Shown: positions 5,581 through 64,000 of the stretch, piece by piece
Layout: each line of letters starts with the position of its first letter
How positions within the stretch are numbered: the stretch's first letter is position 1
Assembly: GCA_947247005.1 (NCBI GenBank)
Contig: OX365955.1
Span: 34,575,822-34,639,821, forward strand
From: Spisula solida
Taxonomy: Eukaryota; Mollusca; Bivalvia; Venerida; Mactridae
Length of the DNA: 64,000 nt
Reading direction: 5' to 3'
Made by a program: the position numbers and the translations under genes
The notes under the pieces: model-generated
Seen by the model: the letters and a program-made list of their open reading frames with translations, nothing else
Told to the model about the DNA's origin: nothing
The model's database searches: none

Positions 5581-5600
5581 TTTGGCTTGCCATAAACGTT

Positions 5601-14862: not shown

Positions 14863-15662
14863 TATACTTAGTGACTTAGTTTTTGACCCCGGATGACCCA
14901 GTAATGAACTTGACCTAGATTTTGTTGAGATGATCATTGTGACCAAGTTTCATAAAGATTAGGTCAAAATCGTGACCTCTAGTGACTACACAAGGTTTTT
15001 CTATGATTTGACCTTGTGACCTAGCTTTTGACCCCGGATGACCCAATATCGAACTTGACCTAGATTTTGTTGAGATGATCATTGTGACCAAGTTTCATAA
15101 AGATTAATTCAAAATTTTGACCTCTAGTGACTACACAAGGTTTTTCTATGATTTGACCTTGTGACCTAGTTTGTGACCCCAGATGACCCAATAATGAACT
15201 TGACCTAGATTTGGTTGAGATGATCATTGTCACAAAGTTTCATAAAGATTAGGTCAAAATCGTGACCTCTAGTGACTACACAAGGTTTTTCTATGATTTG
15301 ACCTTGTGACCTAGCTTTTGACCCCGGATGACCCAATATCGAACTTGACCTAGATTTTGTTGAGATGATCATTGTGACCAAGTTTCATAAATATTAAGTC
15401 AAAATTGTGACCTCTAGTGACTACACAAGGTTTTTCTATAATTTGACCTAGTGACCTAGTTTTTGACCCCAGATGACCCAATATCGAACTTGGCCTAGAT
15501 TTTGTTGAGATGATCATTGTGACCAAGTTTCATAAGGATTAGGCTAAAATTGTGACCCCTAGTGTCTACACAAGCCAATTGTTGACGGACGGACGGACGA
15601 CGGACGACGGACGAAGAGTGATCACAAAAGCTCACTCTGTCACTTTGTGACAGGTGAGCTAA
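14863..15662 (+). mobile_element. HINE/pearl-like element, family A, 5'-truncated
   Basis: About five ~145-bp core units, then GGACGGACGGACGACGG and the tail hairpin AGCTCACTCTGTCACTTTG .. CAGGTGAGCTAA. The head is missing; it joins the family D array at 14862. Confidence 0.75.
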
Positions 15663-27442: not shown

Positions 27443-27650
27443 ATACAATCTTGTAAGAGGATCATTAAGCAATGCTACACACCATACAATCTTGTAAGAG
27501 GATCATTAAGCAATGCTACACACCATACAATCTTGTAAGAGGATCATTAAGCAATGCTACACACCATACAATCTTGTAAGAGGATCATTAAGCAATGCTA
27601 CACACCATACAATCTTGTAAGAGGATCATTAAGCAATGCTACACACCATA
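27443..27650. repeat. Minisatellite, 41-bp unit, five near-perfect copies
   Basis: The unit ATACAATCTTGTAAGAGG + ATCATTAAGCAATGCTACAC + ACC is repeated five times with almost no divergence, so it is recently amplified. Confidence 0.95.
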
Positions 27651-41800: not shown

Positions 41801-44800
41801 AAGCAAACAAACATGACCTTTAGAGTGTTAACAGTGTTTTTCTTTGATGTGACCTAGTGACCTATACTTTGACCCCATATGACCAAGTTACGAACTTGAC
41901 CTAGATTCCATAGGGACAAACATTGTGACCAAGTTGTATAAAGATTAGGCAAATATTGTGACCTCTAGAGTGTAAACAATGTTTTTCTTCAATGTGACCT
42001 TGTGACCTAGTTTTTGACCCCAGATGACCCAGTTGCGAGCTTTACCTAGATTTAATAGAGACCTACATACAATAGAGGCTAACAACAAGTTGATTTTATT
42101 TTAAACTAGCATTCATTTGAAACACATTGGTGAAAACAGAATGAAAATCAGACAATTATTAATGGAGCTATTGCATTTTGAAACCCCCGTTTTGCGTCTT
42201 TTCAGCTAGTGCATGTAAGTCGCCATGTTGGAAAATTGCACACAATAACAGTAACTCTAACTCTACTACAGTACTCATACGCAGTGATCTCCCTTGCCGA
42301 TATGCTACATTTTCAACATCGTGACGCGTAATTTATGTGGTAAATTTTTGATTATACAATGCATAAGCATTTTAATTAACGGTTTATATGTGATGAATTG
42401 TGCATAATTTCTGAGTTAACAATAGTTAAGTGTTCGCAACATAAACAAGAGGGCCCAAAGGGCCCTAGGTCGCTCACCTGTCGAACTTGACCTAGATTTT
42501 GTTGAGATGATCATTGTCACCAAGTTTTATACAGATTAGGTCAATATTGTGACCTCTAGTGACTACACAAGGTTTTTATATGATTTGACCTAACAACCTA
42601 GTTTTTTACCCTAGATAAACTAATATCGAACTTGACCTAGATTTTGTTGAGATGATCATTGTGATCAAGTTACATAAAGATAAAGTCAAAATTGTGACCT
42701 CTAGTGACTACACAAGGTTTTTCTATGATTTGACCTTGTGACCTAGTTTTTGACCCCAGATAACTCAATATCAAACTTGACCTAGATTTTGTTGAGATGA
42801 TCATTGTGACCAAGTTTCATAAAGATTAGGCTAAAATTGTGACCTCTAGTGACTACACAAGGTTTTTCTATGATTTGTCCTTGTGACCTAGTTTTTGACG
42901 CCGGATGACCCAATATTGAACTTGACCTAGATTTTGTTGAGATGATCATAGTGACCAAGTTTCATAAAGATTAAGTCAAAATTGTGACCTCTAGTGACTA
43001 CACAAGGTTTTTCTATGATTTGACCTAGTGACCTAGTTTTTGACCCCAGATTACCCAATATCGAACTTGGCCTAGATTTTGTTGAGATGATCATTGTGAC
43101 CAAGTTTCATAAAGATTAGGCCAAAATTGTGACCTCTAGTGTCTACACAAGCCAATTGTTGACGGACGGACGGACAGACGACGGACGACGGACGAAGAGT
43201 GATCACAAAAGCTCACTCTGTCACTTTGTGACAGGTGAGCTAAAAATGATAGATCACACGGCCAGAAATAGATTATCTAGCTCGAATAGAATATGCCGAA
43301 TGATCGACTTGAAATCCGTTATGTTCATCGCTTTCGGCGTAAATTAGTTGTTTACACATTCTTATTTGTGTAGGCCATCATCTCGCAACTTATGTAACTG
43401 CCCGTAAGGAAAGTCAGCGGGTGTTCTAGTATGACACTGGTTGATATTACCAGACTATCTTGATCGGGGCTATATACATTCCAAACTGTATGTCACGCTG
43501 TTTTACGGCGGACAAAAAAGAAAGTTAAAACAATTACACAGCGAGAGGTCCCTTTAAAATCGATTAGATCAGCGACTCTATATTGATAGAGATTAGGATG
43601 ATAATCTATGACATCTACGAATCTATAACTGTCCATTTTAAATCTTGACAGATCTTTACGTTATGAATACATGTATGTTTAGAAAGTGTATGTATACGTA
43701 TAAAGCTGTTGTCACCCCTAGCAACCAAGGGGTGGTACATTTATGACTTATACATGTATAAATCATAATGTTGATGGTTGAGCAAAGTTATGTATTAAAC
43801 CAAAAGTAAATAAATATGCATTTTTGTACTATACTGTTTCTATGTCGGTATTGCGCGCAGTCGCATTATAGGCACAACCAAAGATCACACAAATCCCGTA
43901 TTGTTATTTGTCGTTCCAATTGATGCGTTGGATACCAATTAGTACATATTTTTTCTTTATGATATTAATTGGTCTATTGTGCAATAAACAACCTTTAGGC
44001 CTAACTCAATATATGTTTTGTTTCCCCATCCCGACCCAAGCAGAATTAGAATGGGTAGGTAGGTAGGTTAAATATTATTTTTAAATTTGTTTCAGGATGA
44101 TAGGTATTGATTGGTCAAGACATACAAATGAGGAAATTTAGTAATAACTAAGGAGAAAACCATGCAAGTCTTACATTTAAAATTAATAGGTACCAAATTT
44201 ACTACTAGTAAGAAACAAGCTTTTATACAAAAAATAATATTTTCATCCCCAATAATTCATAAAATTTTTTTTATTTCAATTTGGGCAATAAAATATTTTG
44301 GGTAGGGCCGCTTTTTTCGGGTAGGTAGGGGATGGGGAAACAAACAATATTTTATTTTAGGCCTTAATTTTCTGGTGTTCAAAGAAAAAATTGCATTTAT
44401 GAACTCTGAAGCCAAGAATAATGGCTATAGATCAAACAGGTTATCCTGTGCATTACACCAAATAGTATATCTATATCATAACCATGGATGACACTGGCCT
44501 ACAAGCATACAATTTTGAGCCTGAATACACGGAAGAGGGATTACACAAGTTGAACAACACAGACAACTAGACAGTTCACGTTCCAGTATAGCTAGTCAAC
44601 GGGTTACATTGGTAAATAAAGGTTAGTTAGATCTGGTGATTTAATAGCGCGCGTTCATTTCCCCGCAAGATCCTGTGGCGCGTCCGTCTTTAAACGTACG
44701 GTGAACGGGTTTTATTCACGGCTGATTACGACGAACGATAACTCAATGCTCATATAAGAGTTGTCGTTACTGTGTGTTAATTTACAAATGGCGATTCCCA

Positions 44801-47800
44801 TGCATATCACAAAACATTGATTTCAAAATGCCCTAGCTCCATTAATAATCGTCTGATTTTCATTCTGTTTGCGCCAATATGCTTCAAATGAACGCTAGTT
44901 TAAAACAAGAGGGCCCAAAGGGCCATAGGTCGCTCACCTGTCCTAGTAGTTCAGGCACCCCTAATGGTAGCCTCTATTGCATGTACAAGGTTTTCATATT
45001 GTCTTATGCTTTATAGTTTACATCACATTTAGACCCAATGACATATTGAAGTGATTGGACCTTGTGACCTAGTTTTTGACCCCGGATGATCCACTATTGA
45101 ACTTGATCTGGATTTTTTTGAGATGATCATTGTGACCAAGTTTCATAAAGATTAGACCAAAATTGTGACCTCTAGTGACTACACAAGGTTTTTCTATGAT
45201 TTGACCTTGTGACCTAGTTTGTGACCCAATATGACGCAATATCGAACTTGACCTAGATTTTGTTGAGATGATCATTGTGAGTAAGTTTCATAAAGATTAG
45301 ACCAAAATTGTGACCTCTAGTGACTACACAAGGTTTTTCTATTATTTGACCTTGTAACCTTGCTTTTGACCCCGGATGACCCAATATCAAACTTGACCTA
45401 GATTTTGTTGACATGATCATTGTGTACAAGTTTAATAATGATTAAGCTAAAACTGTGACCTCTAGTGACTACACAAGGTTTTTCTATGATTTGACCTTGT
45501 GACCTAGTTTTTGACCCCGGATGACCCAATATCGAACTTGACCTAGATTTTGTTGAGATGATCATTGTGACCAAGTTTCATAATGATTAGGCCAAAATTG
45601 TGACCTCTAACGACTACACAAGGTTTTTCTAATATTTGACCTTGTGACCTTGTTTTTGACCCCGGATGACCCGATATAGAACTTGACATAGATTTTGTTA
45701 ATATGATCATTGTGACCAAGTTTCATAAAGATTAGATTAAAATTGTGACCTCTAGTGACTACACAAGGTTTTTCTATCATTTGACCTTGTGACCTAGTTT
45801 TGACCCCGGACGACCCAATATCGAACTTGACCAAGATTTTGTTGAGATGATCATTGTCACCAAGTTTCATAAAGATTAGACCAAAATTATGACCTCTACT
45901 GACTACACAAGGTTTTCTATGATTTGACCATGTGACCTAGTTTTTGACCCCAGATGACCCAATATCGAACTTGACCTAGATTTTATTTAGATGATCATTG
46001 TGACCAAGTTTCATAAAGATTAGACCAAAATTGTGACCTCTAACGACTACTATGGACGGACTGAGAGCAAACCTCTAGTCCCATGCGGTCAAAATCCGGT
46101 AGGTGACTAAAAATGTGACCTCTAGAGTGTTAACAAGGTTTTTCTTTGATTTGACCTAGTGACATAGTTTTTGACCTAACATGACCCAGTAACATACTTA
46201 GCCTAGATTGTGTAGAGACAAACATTATGACCAAGTTTCAAAAAGATTAAATGAAAATTGTGATCTCTAGAGTGTTAACAGTCAAATTGTTGACGACAGA
46301 CAAAGGGGTGATCACAATAGCTCACCTTGAGCACTTAGGTGAGCTAAAAACTGAATTTAAACACACAATTACATTGCACAAACAAACCTTCAAATTATGC
46401 CAGGGATCCTCGACATTGTCTGGATCATATATATCACAACTTCCACCATAGCTTTTCTCAGGTAACGGCTTACCAAGATTGGTATCAATATGTTTCATCA
46501 CTTTACGTCCATCATCCGCAGTCTGTAAATAGTATAACGAACAAATAATTTAACAAATGTTACGAATACAAAATTTCCATAACTTTTGTTTACTTACTAA
46601 CTAGTTGGCATCAATCTGTTTACAAATATCTGTATAGAAATCTACTATAGATAAACCATGTTTTTTGAGCCGTGACTAATTTATGCAGCAAAGTTTATTC
46701 ACCCTAAAAGGGTATGTATATATAAGCAATACCAACATAAGTTAAATAAGTTGTTTAATAAAGTAACTGAATACGTGGCCCAACGGATAAGGCGATGTTC
46801 TATAACACTTACTTTTCTAGGTTCGATCCTTAGTAGAGTCGCTTTTTATATATTTTTTCAAATCCCTTGTTCAAGTAATATTACACAAGAAAGTTATGCA
46901 TTTCCTGGAATTTATTTAACACTGAGGCTTTATTAGTCAAAATTAAGTGTCCTTAGTCATAGTAACCGCGCTTTATTACATAATTTTGGCTGCGACTAGT
47001 AAAATTACTGGTGAAGATGCTTGTATGATAAAGAATATTTAACATGGTTCATATTTACAGAAATTGTGCAAGGAGTTTATATATAAAATAGCCTATGTGA
47101 ATTGAACTTGTATTGCCAGCAGGACACCAACACTGGCGTTAGATGTTGCAATAAACGGTCTTTAAGCACCCACTATATAATCAAATGCATCATCCGACTC
47201 GGACACAGACACAAATGACGGATCGCTAACCAATACACCAAGCTGAAATTCTTAGAGACAAGTTTAAGTATTGGATCCAGAAGGTAAATTAATACTTGGT
47301 CCGTGGAAAGAAATGAAAACAGTGAAACATGAAAACCCATTGCATGTAAATTGAAAAGTCATAATAATAAAATGACTTTAAACAATGTCTTCATGTTCTT
47401 GATGAAAAAGAAACCAAAAAATGTAGTTGAGAAAAAAGTGCAGTTATCAGGACTTGAACTCGCATATCTTAGACTGAAAATCAAGCTCTCTACCGATTGA
47501 GCCAGCGATACTGACAATGTCATGTCACAAAAAAAATATATATCAATACATTTTAAATGCATCTCAACAAGTATATTCACACACCATGACTAAATAGTGT
47601 TATCTCCCGTCACGGCTCAAAACTCGTGGTTGATCTATACACGGCGAACAAACTACACAAATGGGTGTGAAGAAAGGAAAATCAACATGCTATGTTGTTC
47701 ATGCAAATATTGTTCATAAACAAAGAGGGATATTGGCCTTAAATCTTTCACTCGAGTACATTGTAATTTCAGCAAACTTTGAATAGCAAGATTTTTATGG

Positions 47801-50800
47801 TGTGATCTAGTTTGGTGACACAAGTATTCAACATGACCTATATACATACAAACACTCAAGTAATTTGGTGCTTACAGCTGGAATCATTTTAATAATCAAC
47901 TCATAAAGCTAAAATTGTATTAACATACTAAAACAACATAAAGAGCTTACTTGAAAAAGGAGATAAACCAGGGCTAATTCATAGAGATAGCTTAGACACA
48001 GTATAAGTCTCCAAAATGCTGTAAAAATATAAAACGAAATACAAGAAATCAACATGTGATCATAACTGCTTAGGCCAAATCAAATAATTGTCATTTGTGT
48101 GGTTCTTGTAACATGCTGAACAAGAGGGCCCAAAGGGCCCTAGGTCGCTCACCTGTTATAGCAGTACATGCAAGACCTGTGATTTGACCTAGTGACCTAG
48201 TTCTTGGCCCCATATGACGCAATATCGCATTTGACCTAGATTTTGTTGAGATGATCACTCTGACCAAGTTTCATAAGGATTAGGCTAAAATTGTGACCTC
48301 TAGTGACTATACAAGGTTTTTCTATGATTTGACCTTGTGACCTAGTGTTTGACCCCAGATGACCCAATATCTAACTTGACCTAGATTTTGTTGTTATGAT
48401 CATTGTGACCAAGTTTCATAAAGATTAGGTCAAAATTGTGACCTCTAGTGACTACACAAGGTTTTTCTATGATTAGACCTTGTGACCTAGTTTTTGACCC
48501 CAGATGACCCAATATCGAACTTGACCTAGATTTTGTTGTGATGATCGTTGTGACCAAGTTTCATAAAGATTAGGTCAAAATTGTGACCTCCAGTGACTAC
48601 ACAAGGTTTTTTATGATTTGACCTTGTGACCTAGTTTTTGACCCCGGATGACCCAATATCGAACTTGACCTAGATTTTGTTGAGATGATCATTGTGACCA
48701 AGTTTCATAAAGATTAAGTCAAAATGGTGACCTCTAGTGTCTACACAAGGTTTTTTTATGATTTGACCTTGTGACCTAGTTTTTGACCCCGGATGACCCA
48801 ATATCGAACTTGACCTAGATTTTGTTGTGATAATCATTGTGACCAAGTTTCATAAAGATTAGGTCAAAATTGTGACCTCTAGTGACTACACAAGGTTTTT
48901 CTATGATTTGACCTTGTGACCTAGTTTTTGACCCCGAATGACCCAATATCGAACTTGGCCTAGATTTTGTTGAGATGATCATTGTGACCAAGTTTCATAA
49001 AGATTAAGTCAAAATTGTGACCTCTAGTGTCTACACAAGCAAATTGTTGACGGACGGACGGACGACCGACGACGGACGAAGAGTGATCACAAAAGCTCAC
49101 TCTGTCACTTTGTGACAGGTGAGCTAAAAATAGGGTAGGTATGTAGGAAAACATTTTTTATCAAATTTTGATTTTATGCACTGGAAAAATCAACTTTGCA
49201 CAATAAATTCGAGCTAAATACAGACAAAATGTTTAGGGTACGTAGTGTTACCAGTACCATAGGGTAGGTAGTGTTACCAGTACCACAGGGTAGGTAGTGT
49301 TACCAGTACCACAGGGTAGGTAGTGTTACCAGTACCACAGGGTAGGTAGTGTTACCAGTACCACAGGGTAGGTAGTGTTACCAGTACCACAGGGTAGGTA
49401 GTGTTACCAGTACCATAGTATTATTTTGTTTTGGCCTAAATAAACTATTTTACCTAGGGCGCGTTTGTAACGCTGTTCTGCACATCCCGGACAGTGGAAC
49501 ACACTTACGAACAAACCGGAACACTGTTCGGAACATGTTCTTCTTGTGCCCGCCACAGAGGTGGTGAACATCGTCATCATTAGTTAATATTTGGTATCAG
49601 TTTCATGCAATTCTGCCCAGGCATTAAAAGGTTATGGAGTGGACACGTAATGCAAGATTCTTACTTTTGACCTTAAATTGTGACCTTGACAGGTAGTGTT
49701 ACCAGTACCATAGGGTAGGTAGTGTTACCAGTACCACAGGGTAGGTAGTGTTACCAGTACCATAGAACACTGTTCGGAACATGTTCTTCCTGTGCCCGCC
49801 ACAGAGGTGGTGCAGCCAGAACAGTCACATGATTACAGCAAGAACAATGGTTGCTTGTGTCATAAAATAGAATATAATAAATTTATTTTCCAATTATTGG
49901 GCCATTGCGGGAAAACAGTCACATTTTAATATATCCACATGCATATTTCTTCCTCCAATATTACGGCTGCAACTACAATTTTAGTTATCTTAAACAATTT
50001 ACTTTCTGTTCCGTTTTGTTCGTAAGGTGTTTGGAGCAGAACATTTGGCACACTGTGCAAGACAGTTCCGTTTTGTTCGTAAGTTGTTCGGAGTAGAACA
50101 TCCGGCACAGTGTGCGGAACAGACAATACGAACATATCCCTAAAGTGCAGTAAAACGTATCATGATACATGCCATTACAAATAATATACAAGTACATTCA
50201 GTAAAAACATAAAACTAAACAGGGTTTTGATACAAAACGTAGACCATAACTTGGGCAAAAATCATCAGACCTAAAATTCTTGATAATATCCACAACTACG
50301 AAGGTCATTCAATATATAATGCGAACTAACACATACATTCTTAAAAACAATATTAATCATTCAAATATGGACACATCCATTCAAAGTAACATTCTATGTG
50401 ATCAATGACCAACTTCCATCATTTTGACAGACCTTCTACTCGCGTTGCTAGGCAGCTGCGCACATACACTCTATACTGCATGGCCGCAGCCTATTCATTC
50501 CGATGTAAATCAGGATGTCAAATCCCCAGGTTACTGTCGTCTCATTTGCCGCTGGTATGAACATATCTACGTCTCATCTATAGCTAATAGTATGTATAGA
50601 AAGTTTCGCCCTTCCACAATAAAGTGCTAAAGCAAGCCGGCAACTCGTTTGAAGCGACATTCTGTCTTTTCTGACGTCAACAATAAGGGCATGCATCGAG
50701 CGAAATCCTTGCACATGTTTAACCTGTTCCGCAAAATCGAATGAACCAAGCCAAAACTACTCTCCCTTTCCAGGACTTTCTCTACGCATGTGAATATTCT

Positions 50801-53800
50801 GTCTTCTTTCGCAAATTCTCTCATTTTTTGCTGTTTAGTATGGGCCATTGTATAGATATGCTGCCCCGAACACTGGTCTTCTTTGATTGTAATTCTTCCG
50901 ATTGTATTTTTATTTTATAGTCTTGCCTCTTCGGCATATGAAAGAGGACATTTTAACACAAGTCCCAGGTAAGGCAACAATAAATTGTGGACCTTTTGTT
51001 TTCGATGGCGCTCGATTGTTATGTTAACTACGTTGGTCTTGTGACGTTACCACATCCACGTTGTATTAAGTGACGTCGAAGGTAGGCGCACGCTGATGAC
51101 ATCATTGACGTAAAGGTTCTTAAATTTTCTGAACAAAACGAAAATGGCTTAAACAGTTATTATGCAAATTTTCGTTAAATAATCTTGACAGGTTTTAGGG
51201 ATAATTGAAAGTTCGCATTATATACTGAATGACCTTCGTAGAACAAACTTGTATCTTGAATGGTAATTTTCTGTTCTGAAACTTGTGTCTTGTATGGTAA
51301 TTTTCTGTTCTGAAAAGTGTGTATTGTATGGTAGTAGTCTGTTCTGAAACTTGCGTCTTGTATGGTAGTAGTCTGTTCTGAAACTTGCGTCTTGTATGGT
51401 AGTAGTCTGTTCTGAAACTTGTGTATTGTAAGGCAGTAGTCTGTTCTGAAACTTGCGTCTTGTATGGTAATTTTCAGTTCTGAAACTTGTGTCTTGTATA
51501 GTAATTTTCTGTTCTGAAAAATGTGTATTGTATGGTAATTTTCTGTTCTGAAACCTGTGTCTTGTATGGTAATTTTCTGTTCTGAAACTTGTGTCTTGTA
51601 TGGTAATTTTCTGTTCTGAAAAGTGTGTCTTGTATGGTAATTTTCTGTTCTGAAACCTGTGTCTTGTATGGCAATTTTCTGTTCTGAAAAGTGTGTCTTG
51701 TATGGTAGTAGTCTGTTCTGAAACTTGCGCCTTGTATGGTAATAGTCTGTTCTGAAGTGTGTATTGTATGGCAATAGTCTGTTCTGAAAATTGTCTATTG
51801 TATGGTAATTGTCTGTTCTAAAACTAGTGTCTTGTATAGTAATAGCCAGTTCTGAAACATGTGTCTTTTTTGGTAATAGTCTGTTCTAACTAGAACTGTC
51901 GCCATTCTGCAGACTAATATACCCCCGCGTGGCAAAAATCATTGCAGCTAATTCTTTTCTTTATGCACATCTACATGTTGAGGTTGTTAATCTGTTAAAG
52001 TTTAAAGAAAATGCTGCAAAAACTGTAGGAGAAGTTGCGTTGACAAGAACTATTCACTATATACACTATATATTGTATAGGCATAAAAGTACAAAGGGCC
52101 ATAATTCTGTCAAAATTTGTCGCAGCGCAAATTCTTTCCTTTATGCACATCTACATGTTGAGGTTGTTCATCTGTAAAAGTTTTAAGGAAATGCTGTAAA
52201 AACTGTAGAAGGAGTTACCTCCACAAGAATGCGTATACGGACAGACAGACAGACAAGCTGTATCTAGTATACCCCCCCTTACAACTTGTTGTGCGGGGGT
52301 ATAAAAAGTGTGTATTGTAATAAATTAAAAACTATGGTAATAGTCTGTTCTGAAAAGTGTGTATTGTATGGTAATTCTCTGTTCTTCAACTTGTGTCTTG
52401 TGTCTGTTTTGAAACGGGTGTATTGTATGGTAATTCTCTGTTCTTCAACTTGTGTCTTGTGTCTGTTTTGAAACGGGTGTATTGTATGGTAATTCTCTGT
52501 TCTTCAACTTGTGTCTGTTTTGAAACGGGTGTATTGTATGGTAATTCTCTGTTCTTCAACTTGTGTCTTGTGTCTGTTTTGAAACGGGTGTATTGTATGG
52601 TAATTCTCTGTTCTTCAACTTGTGTCTTGTGTCTGTTTTGAAACGGGTGTATTGTATGGTAATTCTCTGTTCTTCAACTTGTGTCTTGTGTCTGTTTTGA
52701 AACTGGTGTATTGTATGGTAATTCTCTGTTCTTCAACTTGTGTCTTGTGTCTGTTTTGAAACGGGTGTATTGTATGGTAATTCTCTGTTCTTCAAATTGT
52801 GTCTTGTGTCTGTTTTGAAATGGGTGTATTGTATGGTAATTCTCTGTTCTTCAACTTGTGTCTTGTGTCTGTTTTGAAACCGGTGTATTGTATGGTAATT
52901 CTCTTTTCTTCAACTTGTGTCTTGTGTCTGTTTTGAAACGGGTGTATTGTATGGTAATTCTCTGTTCTTCAACTTGTGTCTTGTGTCTGTTTTGAAACGG
53001 GTGTATTGTATGGTAATTCTCTGTTCTTCAACTTGTGTCTTGTGTCTGTTTTGAAACTGGTGTATTGTATGGTAATTCTCTGTTCTTCAACTTGTGTCTT
53101 GTGTCTGTTTTGAAACGGGTGTATTGTATGGTAATTCTCTGTTCTTCAAATTGTGTCTTGTGTCTGTTTTGAAACGGGTGTATTGTATGGTAATTCTCTG
53201 TTCTTCAACTTGTGTCTTGTGTCTGTTTTGAAACCGGTGTATTGTATGGTAATTCTCTTTTCTTCAACTTGTGTCTTGTGTCTGTTTTGAAACGGGTGTA
53301 TTGTATGGTAATTCTCTGTTCTTCAACTTGTGTCTTGTGTCTGTTTTGAAACGGGTGTATTGTATGGTAATTCTCTGTTCTTCAACTTGTGTCTTGTGTC
53401 TGTTTTGAAACGGGTGTATTGTATGGTAATTCTCTGTTCTTCAACTTGTGTCTTGTGTCTGTTTTGAAACGGGTGTATTGTATGGTAATTCTCTGTTCTT
53501 CAACTTGTGTCTTGTGTCTGTTTTGAAACGGGTGTATTGTATGGTAATAGTCTGTTCTGAAAAGTGTGTATGGTATGGTCATAGTCTGTTTTGAAAAGTG
53601 TGTATTGTCTGGTCATAGTCTGTTCTGAAAAGTGAGTATTGTATGGTCATAATCTGTTTTGAAAAGTGTGTATTGTATGGTAATAGTCTGTTCTGAAACT
53701 TGTGTCTTGTATGGCAATAGTCTGTTCTGAAAAGTGTGTATTGTATGGTAATAGTCTGTTCTGAAAAGTGTGTCTTGTATGGTAATAGTCTGTTCTGAAA

Positions 53801-56800
53801 AGTGTGTCTTGTATGGTAATAGTCTGTTCTGAAACTAGTGTCTTGTATGGTAATAGTCAGTTCTGAAACTTGTGTCTTGTATGGTAATAGTCTGTTCTGA
53901 AACTTGTGTCTTGTATGGTAATAGTCTGTTCTGAAACTTGTGTATTGTATGGTAATAGTCTGTTCTGAAACTTGTGTCTTGTATGGTAATAGTATGTTCT
54001 GAAACTTGTGCCTTGTATGGTAATAGTCTGTTCTGAAACTTGTGTCTTGTATGGTAATAGTCTGTTCTGAAACATGTGTTTTGTTTGGTTATAATCTGTT
54101 CTTAAATTGTCTATTGTACGGTAAAAGAACCATTAAGGCATTTTTTTTAAAGGTAGTTCTTTTCAAGGTTGAAACCAAATTCAAGGACAGTTTAAGGCTT
54201 GGGCGAACCTTGCTACCCAACTTATTTAAGGAGGGATTACAAGTAGATAGCTGATCTCATATCTACAGTCTGGATCACTAAATAAGCTAACTATATGTAG
54301 GTGTGGGAGTACAGTACCTGGATGAGGTCTTCTGAACACACCATCAGGAGTTTGTGTGACACCAAACAACAAGAATGCCAGACCCATAGCAGTAACACCT
54401 CTGTAACATTATTATATACACATTATATTTCATAAACAAGTCTAATATTCAGGGGTCCTAATAATGCAACATGCCCAATCCTGAAAATAAGATCCAAGTC
54501 TGTTCCTGGTGCGATTAGCACACATCCTTACACCAAAATCAGGTTTCAAACATTGTTATTGTTAAAATTCAGATTAAGGAACTTCAAATGACCATAACTT
54601 AGTCATTATTTTGAAAATTTTCACCAAATAAGTCTGGATTTTCTGATTATTTCAGAATTGCAGGGCCAATGAATATATAATGCTGATGTTGGAAGACTGA
54701 TTGCAAAAGCTCAACAGGGGTGTCAATGAAGCCAAATTAAAAACCAGCAAAAATCATAATGGCCAACCATTTTGGCCAAACAGGAGGCCTTCAACCATAT
54801 TGTTTTTCCATTGTTTGTGTTTATGAAAATCCTTCAGAGCAGATTTAATTGACCATAACATTGTCATTTCTTCATCATAAAGCTTTTATTTTGATCAGGA
54901 ATTCCGGATAAATCAGGAATATTGACACCAGATCATGCTTAAGCAAGTTACAAATACCGATCAACACATATCCATAAATAAGTGAATTAAAAAGTCTGTC
55001 TTCTTAAATACTATTTTATCACCTGACTGATCAACAGTATTTCAGTCATGATGGAGACTACCCAGTCACATTACCTAAAATTACCAAGCAAGGTTTTACA
55101 TGGGTACCACATTCAATGACTTTGGTATGTTTCGGCCTGGGATGGAAACCGCAACCTTTCAATCTGGATGCGGACACTCTAACCATCTGGCCATCGAGGA
55201 TAGTAAAAATAAATCACACTACAACCACTCAGTCACCAAGGATGGTAATCAAGAGGGCCTTGGGCCCTAGGTTGCTCACATGTGGTAATAGTTCATGAAG
55301 GCCCACATGGCAACATAAGAAATCATTTACAAATTCAAAGAATCAAGTTAGTAAATGCAGCCTCAGTTGCATGTACAAGGTTATCATATAGTCCTAACCA
55401 GCGACCTTGTTATTTACATCAGATAACCCATATTGACAGATAAGACCAAAATTGTGACCTCTAGTGCCTACACAAAGTTTTTCTTTGATTTGACCTAGTG
55501 ACCTATTTTGCTCCCGTTTGATCCAATATCAAACTTGACCTTGATTTAGTTGAATGATCATTGTGAACAAGTTTCATAAAGATTAAGTCATAATTGTGAT
55601 GTCTATAGTGAAAATACAAAGTTTTTCTAAGATTTGACTAAGTGACCTAGTTTATGACCTCACATGACCCAGTTTTCGATTTTGGTCTATATTTCATAGA
55701 GACAAACAATGTGACCACGTTTCATGAAGATTAAGTCATAATTTTGTCCTTTAATATGTTCACAAGCTTTTTCTAAGATTTGATATAGTGACCCAGCTTT
55801 TGAAACAACATGACCCAGTTTAAAACTTGACCAACATTTCATAGAAACAAACATTCTGACCAAGTTTCATGACGATTGGGCCATAACTGTGACCTCTAGT
55901 GTGTTCACAAGTTTTTTTCTAATATTTGACCTAGTGACCTAGTTTTTAACCCAATATAACCCAGTTTCAACCTTGACCTAGATTTTATACAGACCCACAT
56001 TCTGACCAGGTTTCATGAAGATTTGGCCATAATTGTGTCCTCTAATGTGTTCACAAGCTTTTTCTAAGATTTTAAATAGTGACCTAGTTTTTGACCCCAT
56101 ATGACCCAGTTTCAGACTTGACCTAGATTTCATAAAGAGAAACATTATGACGAAGTTTCATATAGATTGGGCCATAAATGTGGCCTCTAGTGTGTTCACA
56201 AGCAATTGTGGACGGACTGATGACGGACGAAGAGTGATCACAAAAGCTCACCCTGTCACTATGTGACAGGTGAGCTAAAAGTCACGACAACATCATTTTT
56301 ATTTACTCTGTTTGCACACAAAATTGAATTTAAAAAAAAGTTTATTAAACAAATTATCACAAGTTATGCAAATGATTAGATGTGAAGTCTTTAAAATGAT
56401 AAATTTGTTGTGAATGGTGTCTTACCTTTTGACATTATAATCTGAGTCCGACGACTGCTCTTCAAATACAGCAACATAGATCAGTATACAACTGAATATC
56501 AGTAACACAGTCAATGTGTGTGCACGCCTGTCAAATATAGCATACAAACAGTCAATGTGTTGACACGTCTATCAAATATAGCATACAAACAGTCAATGTG
56601 TGGCCAGGCTTTTCAAATATAGCATACAAACAGTCAACATGTGTGCACGCCTGTCAAGTATAGCATACACACAGTCAATGTGTGTGGGCAAGCCTATCAA
56701 ATATAGCATACAAACAGTCAACATGTGTGCACGCCTGTCAAATATAGCATACACACAGTCAATGTGTGTGGGCAAGTCTGTCAAATATAGCATACAAACA

Positions 56801-58988
56801 GTCAACATGTGTGCACGCCTGTCAAATATAGCATACACACAGTCAATGTGTGTGGGCAAGCCGGTCAAATATATAGCATACACACAGTCAATGTGTGGGC
56901 ACGCCTGTCAAATATAGCATACACACAGTCAATGTGTGGGCAAGCCTGTCAAATATAGCATACAAACAGTCAATGTGTGTGGGCAAGCCTGTCAAATATA
57001 GCATACAAACAGTCAATGTGTGTGGGCAAGCCTGTCAAATTTGGCATTCACACAGTCAATGTGTGGGCAAGCCTGTCAAATATAGCATACACACAGTCAA
57101 TGTGTGTGGGCAAGCTTGTCAAATATAGCATACACACAGTCAATGTGTGTGGGCAAGCCTGTCAAATATAGCATACAAACAGGCAACATGTGTGCAGTCC
57201 TGTCAAATATAGCATACACACAGTCAATGTATGTGCACGTCTGTCAAATATAGCATACAAACAGTCAACATGTGTGCACGCCTGTCAAATATAGCATACA
57301 AACAGTCAATGTGTGGCCAGACCTATCAAATATAGCATACACACAGTCAATGTGTGGGCAAGCCTGTCAAATATAGCATACACACAGTCAATGTGTGTGG
57401 GCAAGCCTGTCAAATATAGCATACACACAGTCAATGTATGTGGGCAAGTCTGTCAAATATAGCATACACACAGTCAATGTGTGTGGGCAAGCCTGTCAAA
57501 TATAGCATACACACAGTCAATGTGTGTGGGCAAGCCTATCAAATATAGCATACAAACAGTCAACATGTGTGCACGCCTGTCAAATATAGCATACAAACAG
57601 TCAATGTGTGGCCAGGCCTATCAAATATAGCATACAAACAGTCAACATGTGTGCACGCCTGTCAAATATAGCATACAAACAGTCAATGTGTGGCCAGGCC
57701 TATCAAAAATAGCATACAAACAGTCAACATGTGTGCACGCCTGTCAAATATAGCATACACACAGTCAATGTGTGTGCACGCCTGTCAAATATATCATACA
57801 AACAGTCAACATGTGTGCACGCCTGTCAAATATAGCATACACACAGTCAATGTGTGTGCACGCCTGTCAAATATATCATACAAACAGTCAATGTGTGGCC
57901 AGGCCTATCAAATATAGCATACAAACAGTCAATGTGTGGCCAGGCCTATCAAATATAGCATACAAACAGTCAACATGTGTGCACGCCTGTCAAATATAGC
58001 ATACACACAGTCAATGTGTGTGCACGCCTGTCAAATATATCATACAAACAGTCAACATGTGTGCACGCCTGTCAAATATAGCATACACACAGTCAATGTG
58101 TGTGCACGCCTGTCAAATATATCATACAAACAGTCAATGTGTGGCCAGGCCTATCAAATATAGCATACAAACAGTCAATGTGTGGCCAGGCCTATCAAAT
58201 ATAGCATACAAACAGTCAACATGTGTGCACGCCTGTCAAATATAGCATACAAACAGTCAATGTGTGGCCTGGCCTATCAAATATAGCATACAAACAGTCA
58301 ATGTGTGTGGGCAAGCCTGTCAAATATAGCATACACACAGTCAATGTATGTGCACGTCTGTCAAATATAGCATACAAACAGTCAACATGTGGCCACACCT
58401 GCACACACATGAACATAGCATTTGCCATTTTAAATCAAATCAAAACATATTCGATGGGTTAGAATTTTATCATATAACACAGAGTTCATTCATTTGAAGA
58501 TTTTACCCCAATTTATCACAGGGTAAGATTACATGCACCTTAACGCTTACATTATTTGCAAATAAAATGAAACCAGCAGGGGTTCTACTGAGGCATTATG
58601 CCCAATCCTGAAAATATGTTTCGAGTGCCATTAGCACACGTCCCTACACAAAAACTCTGTTTCTAACATCGCTCTGTTGGTTGAATTCAGCTTATCAAAT
58701 TTTAAATGACCATAAAAAAGTTGGTATTCTTCATCAAATAACTTTTCTGTATTTTGGGATGATTCTGGAATGGTAAGACCCCTGAACCAGGCACACGAGT
58801 GTTATCCACTTGACTACCGTATTACCCCTATAAATGCAGAGATGAATATTAAAGAGACTATACCAGAAGAATGACATAGTTCCATCATCTTTAATGTCCT
58901 TATATTTGTTCTTTTCCTCCTCCCAGTTATGTGCCGTCGTCGAGTGTAGACGTTGATAAATCATCATTTTCTTTGGTTCCGCCGGCAT
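29652..58988 (-). CDS. PTDSS2: Phosphatidylserine synthase 2, complete 12-exon gene (474 aa)
   Basis: An ER-membrane base-exchange enzyme that makes phosphatidylserine by replacing the ethanolamine of phosphatidylethanolamine with serine (known for the family). All 12 coding exons have GT-AG borders and compatible phases and total 1425 bp, giving 474 residues against 487 in human PSS2. Seen in the protein: [16 protein letters not shown] (34-49), RRPHPAFWR (99-107), [12 protein letters not shown] (175-186; H181), RDWW (193-196), E206/E209, [15 protein letters not shown] (212-226), VCNGLGIY (233-240), [16 protein letters not shown] (305-320) and TELL. About eight to ten hydrophobic spans. R100, just before PHP, matches the arginine linked to product feedback in mammalian synthases (inference). 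The tail is lysine-rich then acidic (424-445). [16 protein letters not shown] and [15 protein letters not shown] favour PSS2 over PSS1. Introns are repeat-packed. Confidence 0.95.
30429..30596. mobile_element. Fold-back element with ~80-bp arms
   Basis: AATAAAAAGTCTGTTCTTGT on the left matches the inverted right end, and pairing extends almost to the centre (ACTCGTGCTACGCACTCGTG). Essentially all hairpin; no coding. Flanking TSD not clear. Confidence 0.75.
30600..31110. repeat. Minisatellite, ~59-bp unit (AGAAATAGACACATATCAGA)
   Basis: About eight units carrying CAGAACCATCTACAGGGCGAG and GGAGTCTCAGTCGTAAC. The last units alternate with a shortened form lacking the GTAACTAAGAAATA part. Confidence 0.9.
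31570..31760 (+). repeat. Possible tRNA-derived SINE fragment
   Basis: AAAGGTTCAAATCCAGACAG near 31617 looks like a B box and is followed by a non-tRNA body. The A box is weak. Low confidence. Confidence 0.25.
31997..32142 (-). CDS. PTDSS2: PTDSS2 coding exon 11 (residues 353/354-401)
   Basis: Acceptor TTGTTTCAG; the first base completes P353. Encodes a membrane span ([20 protein letters not shown]) with the family TELL motif, a short loop, and the start of the last span (ACFWILGFL). Donor GTAAAT; one base is left for G402. Confidence 0.95.
32143..32849 (-). other. PTDSS2 intron 10, no repeat recognised
   Basis: 707 bp between the GTACGT donor and TTTCAG acceptor. The alternative donor four bases further on would put a stop into the frame and is excluded. 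Confidence 0.85.
32850..32995 (-). CDS. PTDSS2: PTDSS2 coding exon 10 (residues 305-352)
   Basis: Encodes [19 protein letters not shown] and [19 protein letters not shown], the most recognisable PSS2 stretch. Acceptor ATATTTCAG in phase 0; ends two bases into P353. Confidence 0.97.
33330..33468. mobile_element. ~140-bp MITE with CTTGAC..TGTGGGG inverted ends, copy 1
   Basis: Left TGACTTGACTATGTGGGG, right CCCCACAACGTCAAGTTGG. The inner AATGAATAGAATCTAAATAT is shared with 59372-59509 in a different host repeat. Confidence 0.7.
33515..34752 (+). mobile_element. HINE/pearl-like element, family A, full copy nested in family B
   Basis: Head AACAAGAGGGCCCAAAGGGC and GGTCGCTCACCTGTC, about seven ~145-bp units, GACGGACGG microsatellite, and the hairpin tail ending CAGGTGAGCTAA. 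Confidence 0.8.
34860..36055. repeat. Minisatellite, 31-37-bp unit (CTACTAGGTTTCCTCTATCT), about 34 copies
   Basis: Units end in GTATATAGGGGCAAA, GTAAATAGGGGCAAA or GTATATAGGTAGGGCAAA. Toward the right, a TTACCAATATCTG variant alternates with TTTCCTCTATCTG as a two- or three-unit higher-order pattern. Confidence 0.95.
36173..36287 (-). CDS. PTDSS2: PTDSS2 coding exon 9 (residues 266/267-304)
   Basis: Encodes [31 protein letters not shown] and the start of a span (GIITI). Acceptor CTATTACAG; the first base completes G266. Donor GTAAGT in phase 0. Confidence 0.95.
36288..36837 (-). other. PTDSS2 intron 8 (half minisatellite)
   Basis: 550 bp; the donor side is a 33-bp array (36570-36831) that begins a few bases past the GTAAGT. 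Confidence 0.9.
36570..36831. repeat. Minisatellite abutting the exon 8 donor, 21/33-bp units (CACAGAGCACAGCCATGTTT)
   Basis: About ten units, with or without a GTAACAGCTGT extension. On the gene strand each long unit contains TGTTACAG, an acceptor-like sequence. Confidence 0.92.
36838..36956 (-). CDS. PTDSS2: PTDSS2 coding exon 8 (residues 227-265)
   Basis: Encodes [20 protein letters not shown] and [18 protein letters not shown], following the CWWDH motif. Acceptor ATTACAG in phase 0; ends with two bases of G266 before GTAAGT. Confidence 0.96.
37047..37099. other. Perfect 24-bp-stem hairpin
   Basis: ACAGGTAACTGTATCATTGA pairs with its exact complement after a ~5-nt loop (GATTG). No coding. 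Confidence 0.85.
37161..37923. mobile_element. ~0.76-kb TIR element (TACAGTCTA ends)
   Basis: TACAGTCTAACTTGTATTAA and inverted TACAGTCTACTTTGTACTAG continue into GCGACCAC, with further GGTCGCTT repeats inside. No ORF over 62 codons. Similar GCGACA-type sequence near 39440-39540 may be a second, decayed copy. Confidence 0.65.
37936..38602 (+). mobile_element. HINE-like element, family J, longer copy
   Basis: Head AACAAGAATGCGTTCAATAA, two to three units (AAGTCTAAGTCCAAAATTAG), a long GAAC/GGAC microsatellite (38480-38545) and the hairpin tail GCCTCCTGATC..TATGGGGCATAAAAA. Confidence 0.7.
38637..38750 (-). CDS. PTDSS2: PTDSS2 coding exon 7 (residues 189-226)
   Basis: Encodes [20 protein letters not shown] and [15 protein letters not shown], the signature of the family's catalytic membrane region, with E206, E209, E213, E221 and D225 retained. 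Both borders are phase 0 (TTTCAG, GTAAGT). Confidence 0.98.
38751..39211 (-). other. PTDSS2 intron 6 (461 bp, ~90% transposable element)
   Basis: Family G sequence fills about 38790-39203, leaving about 8 bp to the exon 6 donor and about 40 bp to the exon 7 acceptor. Confidence 0.9.
38790..39203 (+). mobile_element. HINE/pearl-like element, family G, short copy filling intron 6
   Basis: Two ~163-bp units and the family G tail (CGCCGCCCGCACGC, ACGTCCTGTTTTCAACGGGC, GTATAAAAAA). The head is absent. Confidence 0.85.
39212..39262 (-). CDS. PTDSS2: PTDSS2 coding exon 6 (residues 172-188)
   Basis: A 51-bp exon encoding [17 protein letters not shown], with the conserved H181 ahead of the GWW. Acceptor TTACACAG, donor GTTTGT, phase 0 on both sides. 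The short size and weak donor make it a candidate for skipping, which would keep the frame but remove the histidine. Confidence 0.96.
40021..41407 (+). mobile_element. HINE-like element, family K (GACCCCACATGACCCAACTT units, ~150 bp, about nine copies)
   Basis: A GGGGCGCTCACCTGC head motif, then units with TTGACCTTAAGGTCATCAAG and GCAAAAATATGGCCTCAAG. Related to family A, but with a different core. It runs directly into the next head at 41408. Confidence 0.7.
41408..42085 (+). mobile_element. HINE-like element, family A-related, tail missing
   Basis: Head AACAAGAGGGCCATTGGCCC and AAAGCGCTCACCTGATG, then three to four units (TCTTTGATGTGACCTAGTGA). Ends without microsatellite or hairpin just before the long inverted-repeat element. 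Confidence 0.65.
42445..43243 (+). mobile_element. HINE/pearl-like element, family A, full copy
   Basis: Head AACAAGAGGGCCCAAAGGGC, four to five ~145-bp units, GACGGACGGACAGACG and the complete CTCACTCTGTCACTTTG..CAGGTGAGCTAA tail. Confidence 0.8.
43993..44367. mobile_element. ~375-bp TIR element, TTTAGGCC family, with GGGTAGGTAGG motifs
   Basis: TTTAGGCCTAAC..TTTCCCCATCCC and the inverted right end (TTAAGGCCTAAAA..TTTCCCCATCCCC) match over about 40 bp. GGGTAGGTAGGTAGG lies near both inner ends. Confidence 0.7.
44905..46107 (+). mobile_element. Chimeric HINE-like element: family A head and core, family B tail
   Basis: Starts AACAAGAGGGCCCAAAGGGC and has about seven family A units. At about 46052 it switches to GGACGGACTGAGAGCAAACC, TAGTCCCATGCGGTC and CCGGTAGGTGACTAAA, the family B terminus. 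Confidence 0.75.
46108..46351 (+). mobile_element. HINE-like partial element with variant family A tail
   Basis: One and a half units (GTGACCTCTAGAGTGTTAAC), GACGACAGACAAAGGGGTG, and the hairpin AGCTCACCTTGAGCACTTAGG with GTGAGCTAAAAA. It ends 37 bp from the exon 5 donor. Confidence 0.6.
46388..46522 (-). CDS. PTDSS2: PTDSS2 coding exon 5 (residues 127-171)
   Basis: Encodes the lumenal/loop segment with [40 protein letters not shown] and LK, colinear with human PSS2. Acceptor ATTTACAG and donor GTTTGT, both phase 0. Confidence 0.97.
46775..46843 (+). pseudogene. tRNA-Arg-like relic or SINE head
   Basis: GTGGCCCAACGGATAAGGC (A-box region) and AGGTTCGATCC (B box) have tRNA-like spacing. The anticodon stem does not pair, so this is not a working tRNA. 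Confidence 0.4.
47441..47514 (-). pseudogene. tRNA-like relic, TTC in anticodon position
   Basis: On the minus strand: TGGCTCAATCGGTAGAG (A box, D stem GCTC/GAGC), loop TTTTCAG and GAGTTCAAGTCC (B box). The acceptor arms CAGTATC / GATAACTG pair with a bulge. The anticodon and T stems have mismatches and no CCA is encoded. Probably a pseudogene or SINE head. Confidence 0.45.
47951..48018 (-). CDS. PTDSS2: PTDSS2 coding exon 4 (residues 104/105-126)
   Basis: Encodes [20 protein letters not shown] and FQ, a membrane span. The first two bases complete A104 of the RPHPAFW motif. Acceptor TTTTTACAG, donor GTAAGC. Confidence 0.95.
48118..49130 (+). mobile_element. HINE/pearl-like element, family A, full copy
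   Basis: Head AACAAGAGGGCCCAAAGGGC and GGTCGCTCACCTGTT, about six units, GACGGACGGACGGACG microsatellite and the full hairpin tail CAGGTGAGCTAA. Confidence 0.8.
49233..49425. repeat. Minisatellite, 26-bp unit (GGTAGGTAGTGTTACCAGTA)
   Basis: About seven near-identical units ending CCACAG. Three more units are at about 49690-49765 after an intervening segment. Confidence 0.92.
49454..50144. mobile_element. ~0.69-kb TIR-like element (TAGGG..GTTCBGCACA ends)
   Basis: CTAGGGCGCGTTTGTAACGC / TGTTCTGCACA faces the inverted TTTAGGGATATGTTCGTATT / TGTTCCGCACA. Inner copies of GTTCCGTTTTGTTCGTAAG and inverted TTACGAACAAACCGGAAC add symmetry. A duplicated block (49521-49565 and 49767-49812) contains GAACACTGTTCGGAACATG. 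Confidence 0.55.
50400..51150. promoter_or_regulatory. CG-richer, non-repetitive island in intron 3 with CRE- and X-box-like motifs
   Basis: A perfect palindromic TGACGTCA (50672-50679), further TGACGT half sites near 51040, 51068 and 51103, and GTTGCTAGGCAGC (50444-50456), which resembles an RFX X box. It is the only CpG-bearing non-repeat stretch of this size in the gene, so an intronic enhancer or alternative promoter is possible. Motif matches alone are weak evidence. Confidence 0.3.
50627..50848 (-). CDS. Unrecognised 73-codon ORF inside intron 3
   Basis: Runs from ATG at 50848 to TAG at 50627 and encodes a basic, cysteine-containing protein ([19 protein letters not shown] ..). It is not made of repeats, unlike nearly all other ORFs here. 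The CG-richer DNA lies upstream of its start. No domain is recognised. It may be chance, an exon of a nested gene or a cassette exon. Confidence 0.2.
   Translation of the reverse strand: MAHTKQQKMREFAKEDRIFTCVEKVLERESSFGLVHSILRNRLNMCKDFARCMPLLLTSEKTECRFKRVAGLL
51240..54120. repeat. Compound minisatellite, ~33-bp unit with a 59-bp higher-order form
   Basis: The outer parts are ~33-bp units (GTCTTGTATGGTAATAGTCTG + TTCTGAAACTT). The centre (about 52373-53540) is about 20 copies of a 59-bp dimer (TTCTTCAACTTGTGTCTTGT + GTCTGTTTTGAAACGGGTGT + ATTGTATGGTAATTCTCTG). It is interrupted at 51888-52306. Confidence 0.95.
51888..52306 (+). mobile_element. HINE-like element, family H, inserted in the minisatellite
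   Basis: Head AACTAGAACTGTCGCC, two units (TCTTTATGCACATCTACATG, GAGGTTGTTAATCTG), GACAGACAGACA, and tail TATACCCCCCC..GCGGGGGTATAAAAA. The sister copy is at 59161-59578. Confidence 0.75.
54318..54400 (-). CDS. PTDSS2: PTDSS2 coding exon 3 (residues 76/77-103)
   Basis: Encodes [20 protein letters not shown] and VFRRPHP. R100 aligns with the feedback-linked arginine of mammalian PSS1/PSS2. Acceptor AATGTTACAG; the first base completes R76. Donor GTACTG. Confidence 0.95.
54451..54665. mobile_element. MITE-like repeat, CAGGGGTC family, copy 2
   Basis: TTCAGGGGTCCTAATAATGC, ATTAGCACACATCC and CCATAACTTAGTCATT align with the copies at 19353 and 58576. Confidence 0.65.
55120..55200 (-). repeat. 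tRNA-derived SINE head
   Basis: Minus strand: GATGGCCAGATGGTTAGAGTG (A-box region) and GGTTGCGGTTTCCATCCC (degenerate B box), as in molluscan tRNA-type SINEs. Body not delimited. Confidence 0.4.
55250..56279 (+). mobile_element. HINE/pearl-like element, family A, divergent full copy
   Basis: Head TCAAGAGGGCCTTGGGCCC and GGTTGCTCACATGTGG, about five diverged units, GGACGGACTGATGACGGACG and tail CTCACCCTGTCACTATG..CAGGTGAGCTAA. It ends about 146 bp before exon 2. It is the most diverged family A copy here, so likely the oldest. Confidence 0.75.
56426..56527 (-). CDS. PTDSS2: PTDSS2 coding exon 2 (residues 42/43-75)
   Basis: Encodes [20 protein letters not shown] and [13 protein letters not shown]: the first membrane span, then a lumenal acidic loop. 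Acceptor TATATTTGACAG; the first base completes W42. Donor GTAAGA after two bases of R76. Its first ~20 bases and acceptor are the template of the adjoining minisatellite. Confidence 0.96.
56507..58410 (-). repeat. Minisatellite, 41-bp unit, built from the exon 2 splice acceptor (about 45 copies)
   Basis: On the gene strand the unit is TTTGTATGCTATATTTGACAG then GCGTGCACACACATTGACTG, i.e. the end of intron 1 plus the first 20 bases of exon 2 (coding RAHTLT). The last unit is the real exon boundary. Variants include GCTTGCCCACAC, GCCTGGCCACAC and ACATGTTGACTG. Most copies keep the AG, some read GATAG. Confidence 0.95.
56528..58863 (-). other. PTDSS2 intron 1 (mostly minisatellite)
   Basis: 2.3 kb: the exon-derived array (to 58410) and MITE copy 58576-58797 on the donor side. 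Borders GTATAG..GACAG. Confidence 0.9.
58576..58797. mobile_element. MITE-like repeat, CAGGGGTC family, copy 3
   Basis: GCAGGGGTTCTACTGAGGC, TGCCCAATCCTGAAAAT, CATTAGCACACGTCCC and closing TAAGACCCCTGA. It lies about 65 bp from the exon 1 donor. Confidence 0.65.
58864..58988 (-). CDS. PTDSS2: PTDSS2 coding exon 1 (residues 1-41/42)
   Basis: ATG at 58988-58986. Encodes a cytosolic N-terminus ([20 protein letters not shown] .. [14 protein letters not shown]) and two bases of W42. The DDGTxxFFW end matches human PSS2 and fixes frame and donor (GTATAG). No signal peptide, as in the family. A two-codon upstream ORF precedes it. Confidence 0.93.
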
Positions 58989-62250: not shown

Positions 62251-63397
62251 TTACAGCCACACTATGTCCTAAGGGGTGCTTGACCAACTGAGTACAGCCA
62301 TACCAGGTGTAATACAGCCATCATAGGTCCTATTTGTTAATTCACAACCACTAGTTATGGACACACTAATCCCTATGGGGTTGTCGCAACCACTAAATAC
62401 AGCCATACCAGATCATATGTGGTCATTACCACTACCAATTACAGCCACCCTAGGCCCTACCCACAACCATTGTGTATAGCCATACTATGCCTGAGGGTAC
62501 TCACATCCACTGAGAACAGCCATTCAATGCCCTATTTGGTACTTAACACTGCCTAGTACAGCCGTCCCAGGCCAGTTTATGTTCTCAGCTCCAAAAGTTC
62601 AACCATCCAAGGCCAATTAGGGTACCCACCACCACCAATTAAAGTCATATCAGGTCTTATAGAGTACTCACCACCACTAAGTACAGCCATCCTAGGCCCT
62701 ATTGGATACTCACCATCACAGACATCAGCCACCCCAGGTTCTATTTGGTACCCACCACCTTGAGTACTGCCATCTCAGTCCATATTTGATACCCACCACC
62801 TCTGAGGACTGTCATCCCTGGCCCTATTAAAAGCTATTTAGTAACCACCACCACAGAAAACAGCCATCCCAGGCAATATTGAATACTCTATACCACAGAC
62901 AACATCCAGCCTAGGCCCTTTGGTACCTACTACATCTGAGTACAGTCATCCCAGGCCCTTTTGGGTACCCACCACAACAGAAAACAGCCATCCTAGGCCC
63001 TATTGAATACCCTATACCACAGAGAACGATTAGCCCAGGCCCCATTTGGTACCCACTACCTCTGAGTACAGTCATCCCAGGCCTTATTGAGTACACACCC
63101 TTACAGATTTCAGCCATCCCAGGCCATATTGAGTACCCAGCATTAAAGATTACAGCCATCCAATGCCCTATTGAGTAACCACCATCACAGATTACAGCCA
63201 TCCCAGGCCCTATTGAGTACTCACCATCACAAATTACAGCCATTCCAAGCCCTAATGTGTACCCGGCCTCAGAGATTTCAGCCATTCTAGGCCCTATTGT
63301 GTACCCACCATCACAGATTACAGCCATCCCAGGCCCCAGTGAGTACCCACCATCACAGATTTCAGTCAACCAAAGCCCTATTGAGTACCTACCCAGA
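62251..63397. repeat. Degenerate minisatellite, ~42-bp unit (CAGCCATCCCAGGCCCTATT)
   Basis: Units read TGAGTACCCACCATCACAGA + TTACAGCCATCCCAGGCCC + TAT. Order rises from left (very diverged) to right (regular). Confidence 0.85.
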
Positions 63398-63792
63398 CAT
63401 TATGAAAGTTGGCAAAAACGATCGGACATTGGTCCGATAATGTCTTGCAAACTGCCGGACCAAAAGCAAAACTGCCGGACAAAACAAAATTGCTAAAAAA
63501 AATTTTTTTTGGAACTCAAAATAATGTGTTTCAACACGCAATTTTTGTCTGATTTAACTAACCAGCTATGAAATATCATCCATTTTTCATGGAAAGTATA
63601 TGTTCTCCCGTTTCTTTATACTCTATGCAGACGGCCGCACTTAAATCAATCATTTTACATGCTCCCGCATCGGCTTCGTCGTTTATCGACGCCATTTTTG
63701 TTTTGACAGTTGCGGATAAAGGCCGGTCAGTCGGACCGGTTCCGGAATGAAAAACGGCGGACCGTATCAAAATTTGCCGGACTTTCAGAATG
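63398..63792. mobile_element. ~395-bp TIR element interrupting the 42-bp array
   Basis: CATTATGAAAGTTGGCAAAA faces inverted CATTCTGAAAGTCCGGCAAA, continuing to GATCGGAC / GATACGGTCC. Rich in CGGACC motifs. The array resumes at once after 63792. Confidence 0.75.
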
Positions 63793-64000
63793 AATGCCTA
63801 CCATCACAGATTTCAGCCATCCCAAACCCTATTGTGTACCCACCATCACAGATTAAGCCATCCCAGGCCCCAGTGAGTACCCACCATCACAGATTTCAGT
63901 CATCCAAAGCCCTATTGAGTACCTACCATCACAGATTTCAGCCATCCCAAACCCTATTGTGTACCCACCCTCACAGATTTCAGCCATCCCAGACCCTATT
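63793..64000. repeat. Continuation of the ~42-bp minisatellite to the window edge
   Basis: Five more units (ACCATCACAGATTTCAGCC). The array runs out of the window. Confidence 0.88.

Follow-up and report, generated by a model that had tools for sequence, protein, structure and literature searches.

The first intron of a phosphatidylserine synthase 2 gene (PTDSS2) carries a 41-bp minisatellite, each of whose 45 units straddles a copy of the acceptor of the gene's own second exon. Minisatellite-like duplications of intron-exon boundaries have been named "mirages" in amphioxus (Ebner et al., 2010; PMC3087553). We favor, with a probability of about 0.7, the reading that the PTDSS2 array is a mirage that was seeded at the exon 2 junction, that its last unit is the one spliced, and that the array is a tolerated by-product and not an adaptation. 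As we picture it, a segment of about 41 bp astride the junction of intron 1 and exon 2 would have been duplicated in tandem to seed a minisatellite, which was then enlarged and partly homogenized, probably by unequal exchange or slippage. Nearly every copy has the parts of a 3' splice site, namely an exon-derived, branch-point-like TTGAC, a short tract, and an AG. Productive splicing would have to use the last unit, as the upstream starts are computed to give a stop codon. Only that unit runs on into the remainder of exon 2 with its strong donor, and exon definition would most likely pick it, such that the other copies leave with the intron and messages arising from their mistaken use probably decay.

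PTDSS2, the exon 2 boundary, and the array

The window analyzed was a stretch of 64,000 nucleotides with a GC content of 36.1%, and all coordinates refer to it. The protein encoded by exons 1 to 7 matched the phosphatidylserine synthase 2 PDB chain 9n0x_A (E = 2.8e-94) and the Pfam family PSS (E = 2e-52), and it matched synthase 1 more weakly than synthase 2 (E = 3e-33). Four further PTDSS2 exons were found at ~36.9, 36.3, 33.0, and 32.1 kb, with a human fragment as the query. Homology to the synthase 2 chain and to PSS thus upholds the initial annotation of the gene, which on this evidence is PTDSS2, lying on the minus strand and extending over at least 27 kb. The features on which the argument turns are as follows.

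58864..58988, minus strand: coding part of PTDSS2 exon 1, 125 nt, ending in TTCTTCTG and followed by the donor GTATAG
56528..58863, minus strand: PTDSS2 intron 1, 2,336 nt, containing 67 AGs
56507..58385, minus strand: 41-bp minisatellite (TRF), cut into 45 units that each include a copied exon 2 acceptor
56860..56861, minus strand: site of the lost AG in one unit (GACCGG)
56551..56555, minus strand: branch-point-like TTGAC of the true acceptor, in an exon-derived copy, with a putative function
56528..56529, minus strand: AG of the true exon 2 acceptor, in the last unit of the array, placed by reading frame and FFW/RAHTLTV homology
56505..56527, minus strand: first 23 nt of exon 2, matched exactly in four upstream units
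56426..56527, minus strand: PTDSS2 exon 2, 102 nt, with the donor AAAAG/GTAAGA
54318..54400, minus strand: PTDSS2 exon 3

Exon 1 translates as MPAEPKK...DDGTMSFF, which is homologous to 9n0x_A, and exons 1 (58988-58864), 2 (56527-56426), and 3 (54400-54318) form a single open frame when translated on the minus strand. Joining the end of exon 1, TTCTTCTG, to the start of exon 2, GCGTGCACAC, gives the codons TGG CGT GCA CAC and so fixes the acceptor AG at 56529-56528. An 11-residue stretch across this junction (FFW/RAHTLTV) is identical in the synthase 2 PDB chain, and among the 45 unit positions only the last keeps the frame open through exons 1-2-3. The homology and the open frame bear out the exon 2 boundary that had been proposed. 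Coding potential and homology are the grounds on which splicing is assigned to the last acceptor.

TRF reported a tandem, head-to-tail array at 56507-58385 with a 41-bp period and 45.2 copies. It occupies 80% of intron 1 and extends without a break past the true acceptor to take in 23 nt of exon 2. Read on the minus strand, the commonest unit comprises 20 nt of intron end, TTGTATGCTATATTTGACAG, followed by ~21 nt of exon start, the exon-start part of the true unit being GCGTGCACACACATTGACTGT. A junction-spanning 22-mer had 33 matches with three or fewer mismatches in the window, all of them within the array, and none in 100 shuffles; similarly, the 50 nt around the true acceptor aligned with the rest of intron 1 with a score of 91, compared with a mean of 16.5 and a maximum of 26 in 300 shuffles. 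These junction copies, together with an exon part that encodes RAHTLTV as in the synthase 2 chain, support the earlier suggestion that the unit was derived from the exon 2 acceptor. At the distal edge, the sequence at 58391-58440 was no closer to the unit in alignment than shuffled sequence was (p = 0.199), so that an extra diverged copy there is unsupported and the array is best ended near 58390. The array had been placed at 56507..58410, which is correct in location and slightly too far at its end.

We cut the array at the acceptor, which gave 45 units, the true one counted. An AG lies at or beside the acceptor position in 44 of them; it is in register in 42, is displaced in two in which the G has changed and the AG has moved by one base, and is lost in one. 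Of the 67 AGs in intron 1, 45 fall inside the array, and these comprise the 44 unit acceptors (again counting the true one) and one extra AG at 58269. The description of a field of acceptor-like copies, about 45 in number and most with the AG, ahead of the true acceptor therefore stands. Each unit was also said to carry the first ~20 bases of exon 2. This is exactly so in four upstream units, which match over 21 to 23 nt; the other 40 differ from the exon 2 start by substitutions or a 2-nt insertion.

Choice among the acceptors

When the core of the acceptor is taken as 20 intron and 3 exon bases, the upstream units at 58233, 57659, 57577, and 57282 are identical to the true site, and 16 further units are one base away from it. 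No model of this 23-nt core alone can separate those four decoys from the true acceptor. What decides among them must therefore lie in the context (exon body, donor, position, and perhaps structure) and not in the core.

In each unit, the 46 nt ending at the AG were searched for a branch-point-like YTNAY motif. In 41 of the 45 units (true one counted) its A precedes the G of the AG by 24 nt; the distance is 25 nt in two and 28 nt in one, and the motif is absent from one; it is a short motif, with a background of 0.011 per nt in intron 3. In the 46-nt stretch of the true acceptor, TTGAC, with which the copied exon part ends, is the sole YTNAY at least 12 nt before the AG. Furthermore, the nearest upstream unit AG is 41 nt from the true AG, such that the branch point of the true acceptor should fall within these 41 nt. 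Under the usual rules of AG choice, that branch point most likely lies in exon-derived sequence.

A premature stop resulted from each of the 44 upstream starts, 43 of which have an AG, the closest stop being 145 nt before the exon 2/3 junction, and so of these sites only the last unit can make protein. Such an outcome would be expected of a functional decoy field, in which upstream acceptors capture some splicing, the products decay, and copy number sets the level of PTDSS2 protein. Exons starting at the first four upstream units would be 143, 183, 225, and 268 nt long; these are ordinary exon sizes, in keeping with a decoy field, so that exon length alone would not exclude those units. The stops, however, are not evidence of design, because a unit whose length is not divisible by three and which has a stop in some frame yields them anyway.

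The pattern of variation among the units also bears on this question. In favor of a decoy field, almost all copies retain the motif, the tract, and the AG, and it is the exon body that varies: variable columns cluster at -3 to +14 (scan p = 0.02), and from the branch-point-like motif to the AG the units are nearly invariant. A block picked after inspection contained variable columns at 10 of 16 positions, compared with 2 of 25 elsewhere (Fisher p = 0.0003). The AG, however, is not specially conserved, since 25 of the 39 adjacent column pairs, with the AG pair counted, vary as little or less, and we saw no selection on it; nor did intron and exon columns differ in variability (4 of 20 versus 8 of 21; Fisher p = 0.31). 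The near-invariant stretch could reflect selection on the copies as splice sites, although shared descent from a few unit types could produce it too. Exchange spreads unit types, so that the units are not independent observations, and the column statistics are to be read with that limit. Against a decoy field there is also the report that the amphioxus cases do not disturb splicing (PMC3087553, PMC3902484). We consider a functional decoy field unlikely, and we are similarly doubtful that an exon-derived branch point and a ladder of splice sites together let copy number set the share of unproductive splicing. Were the ladder to prove real, it would be a natural, length-variable experiment on how the spliceosome chooses among identical acceptors, outside the cephalochordates.

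The units had in addition been described as micro-exon-like, which finds little favor in the strength of their donors. Among 139 GTs in 58385-56548, the best predicted U1 pairing was -4.7 kcal/mol, at one site, and the next best was -3.6. Seven donors of the gene (those of exons 7, 9, and 10 were left out of the scoring) ranged from -4.5 to -10.3 kcal/mol, the exon 1 donor, at -5.3, being itself weak. Thus, at 138 of the 139 array GTs the predicted U1 pairing falls short of that of the weakest scored donor, by a measure that is coarse, given that the 328 GTs of intron 3 average -2.1 kcal/mol and 5% of them reach -5.4, close to the exon 1 donor. We therefore rejected tandem micro-exons, since the units appear to have no usable donor, and regard it as unlikely that they act in this way.

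A recursive splice site is defined by AG/GT, an acceptor followed directly by a donor. This arrangement was present in one of the 45 units (57323, TAG/GTC), and recursive splice sites were rejected as an account of the array. A CAG/GT also occurs at 58399, past the distal array edge.

RNA structure might play a part in acceptor choice, to judge from folding predictions. A six-unit stretch folded slightly better than shuffled sequence (z = -1.80; 7 of 200 shuffles were as good). The true AG had a predicted unpaired probability of 0.52, compared with a decoy mean of 0.25 (sd 0.17), and the true TTGAC region was predicted to be less open than its counterparts (0.30 versus a decoy mean of 0.41, sd 0.22). 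In predicted accessibility of the whole core, the true site ranked 20th of 45.

Origin and history of the array

There are 25 distinct sequences among the 45 units, with a mean pairwise identity of 0.892. Six units, with AGs from 58192 to 57987, are repeated exactly by the units with AGs from 57946 to 57741, a 246-bp duplication without a single difference (246/246) that points to recent exchange. This repeat lies in the distal half of the array, and singleton unit types tend to be commoner toward the exon.

Long, near-identical arrays are, as a matter of general knowledge, often misassembled, and an exactly duplicated six-unit block is what a collapsed or expanded repeat or joined haplotypes might leave behind. 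An assembly product of this kind, affecting the array or its copy number, is nevertheless improbable, given the 25 distinct unit sequences and the fact that both edges of the array run into intron and exon sequence. The reverse order of events, in which the repeat was intronic at the outset and the exon 2 boundary later shifted into it, would fit the continuity of the last unit with the array but is very improbable indeed, since the exon part encodes a RAHTLTV identical to that of the synthase 2 PDB chain and the junction phase fits, which implies that the exon sequence came first and that the copies in the array derive from it.

We tested 20 exon boundaries of the gene (the exon 4 donor at a position one base off), and only the exon 2 acceptor was found duplicated. 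The exon 8 donor beat 300 shuffles, but its match starts at intron position +9, and the junction alone gave p = 0.088. Behind this donor (GTAAGT) lies a 24/33-bp array at 36570-36827, with similarity beginning ~9 nt inside intron 8. Neither the exon 4 acceptor, whose match (p = 0.02) falls in T-rich intron sequence, nor the exon 10 acceptor, at p = 0.084, was accepted as a copied junction. A version of the test with 6-kb flanks was set aside because, in this repeat-rich gene, 82 of 200 random control positions scored 60 or more. Large minisatellites also occupy 51245-54124 (34/59 bp, intron 3) and 34863-36050 (38 bp, intron 9), where the boundaries have no copied junction.

How often would such an array straddle a boundary by chance? 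We modeled founder units placed at random over the 27-kb span with its 20 exon boundaries, with at least 5 nt on each side of the boundary. The input was nine TRF minisatellite rows with periods of 26 to 59 bp, one row per array; longer-period repeats, 4-bp repeats, and overlapping rows were left out. Under this model, 0.20 arrays are expected to straddle an exon boundary, and the probability of at least one is 0.18. It is therefore plausible that a single boundary-straddling array in this minisatellite-dense gene is an accident.

Known relatives and other features of the window

Amphioxus mirages are known from Adh3, the globins BflGb6 and BflGb9, troponin C, and PGBD5 (PMC3087553, PMC3902484), the last two having been added by the PGBD5 paper (PMC3902484). 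Regular splicing is reported to be undisturbed in them, length instability between alleles or in soma counts as a further mark of a mirage, and Ebner et al. (2010) proposed mirages as a route to new introns (PMC3087553). Judged by its sequence, the PTDSS2 array has the structure by which a mirage is defined: it is a head-to-tail array, its unit lies astride a boundary and is continuous with the true one, and the AG is present in 44 of 45 units. It shares with the amphioxus cases tandem copies of an intron-exon boundary, many of them keeping the splice signal, and perhaps also a homogenized cluster with deviating edge units. It differs in copy number (45 units, compared with 6 and 3 in two BflGb6 haplotypes) and in unit length (41 bp, compared with 150 to 160 bp in BflGb6, 157 bp in BflGb9, and 10 to 72 bp in Adh3). 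The gene is also a different one, and the host is probably not a lancelet.

A search of part of the literature found no such array in molluscs, and none is described in the available portions of two mollusc papers (PMC3862624, PMC7931591); the term "mirage" was not found in the amphioxus huntingtin paper (PMC2206037). The repeat families of the window give the impression of a bivalve mollusc, and should the host be a mollusc, mirages would extend beyond the lancelets. A scan of bacterial and archaeal contigs gave eight single matches, which we ascribe to chance, and viral contigs gave none. Its identical decoys make the array a natural test of acceptor choice on a very large scale, one in which the choice is open to direct experiment, and the array suggests a way in which coding sequence may be turned into an intron signal.

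Internal tandem repeats that alter introns or create them were reportedly described by Zhuo in 2007 and by Gao and Lynch in 2009. In human segmental duplications, tandem repeats at exon-intron boundaries are reported to have given rise to novel introns or longer exons (PMC2812944). Those repeats and the PTDSS2 array both touch splice sites at exon-intron boundaries; the PTDSS2 copies, in contrast, sit inside an intron and have no good donors. Minisatellites have also been described in intron 1 of an earthworm metallothionein gene (PMC12783039), likewise a large array in an invertebrate first intron. In the text consulted, no splice acceptor is described in the earthworm monomer.

Several other features of the window were recorded. 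A second 41-bp array, at 27443-27650, has 5.1 copies with 100% matches (TRF) and is probably very young. A reverse transcriptase fragment at 5540-6265 on the minus strand (Pfam RVT_1, E = 2.5e-21) is probably part of a retrotransposon remnant. On the plus strand, a 294-codon open frame at 11748-12629 has, by eye, a zinc-finger-like CEICGKRF...H...H near its start and had no Pfam match at a threshold of 0.001. Upstream of PTDSS2, a 42-bp (14-codon) repeat in two blocks spans 62596-64000 and holds open stretches of 162 codons on the minus strand and of 105 and 93 codons on the plus strand. Finally, tandem repeats of ~145 bp, GTGACCTAGTTTTTGACCCC... and variants, which by eye resemble one family, occur at many sites in the window.

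10616-11475, 14871-15574, 33663-34651, 42481-43151, 45052-46050, 48180-49039, and 55446-56203: sites of the ~145-bp repeat
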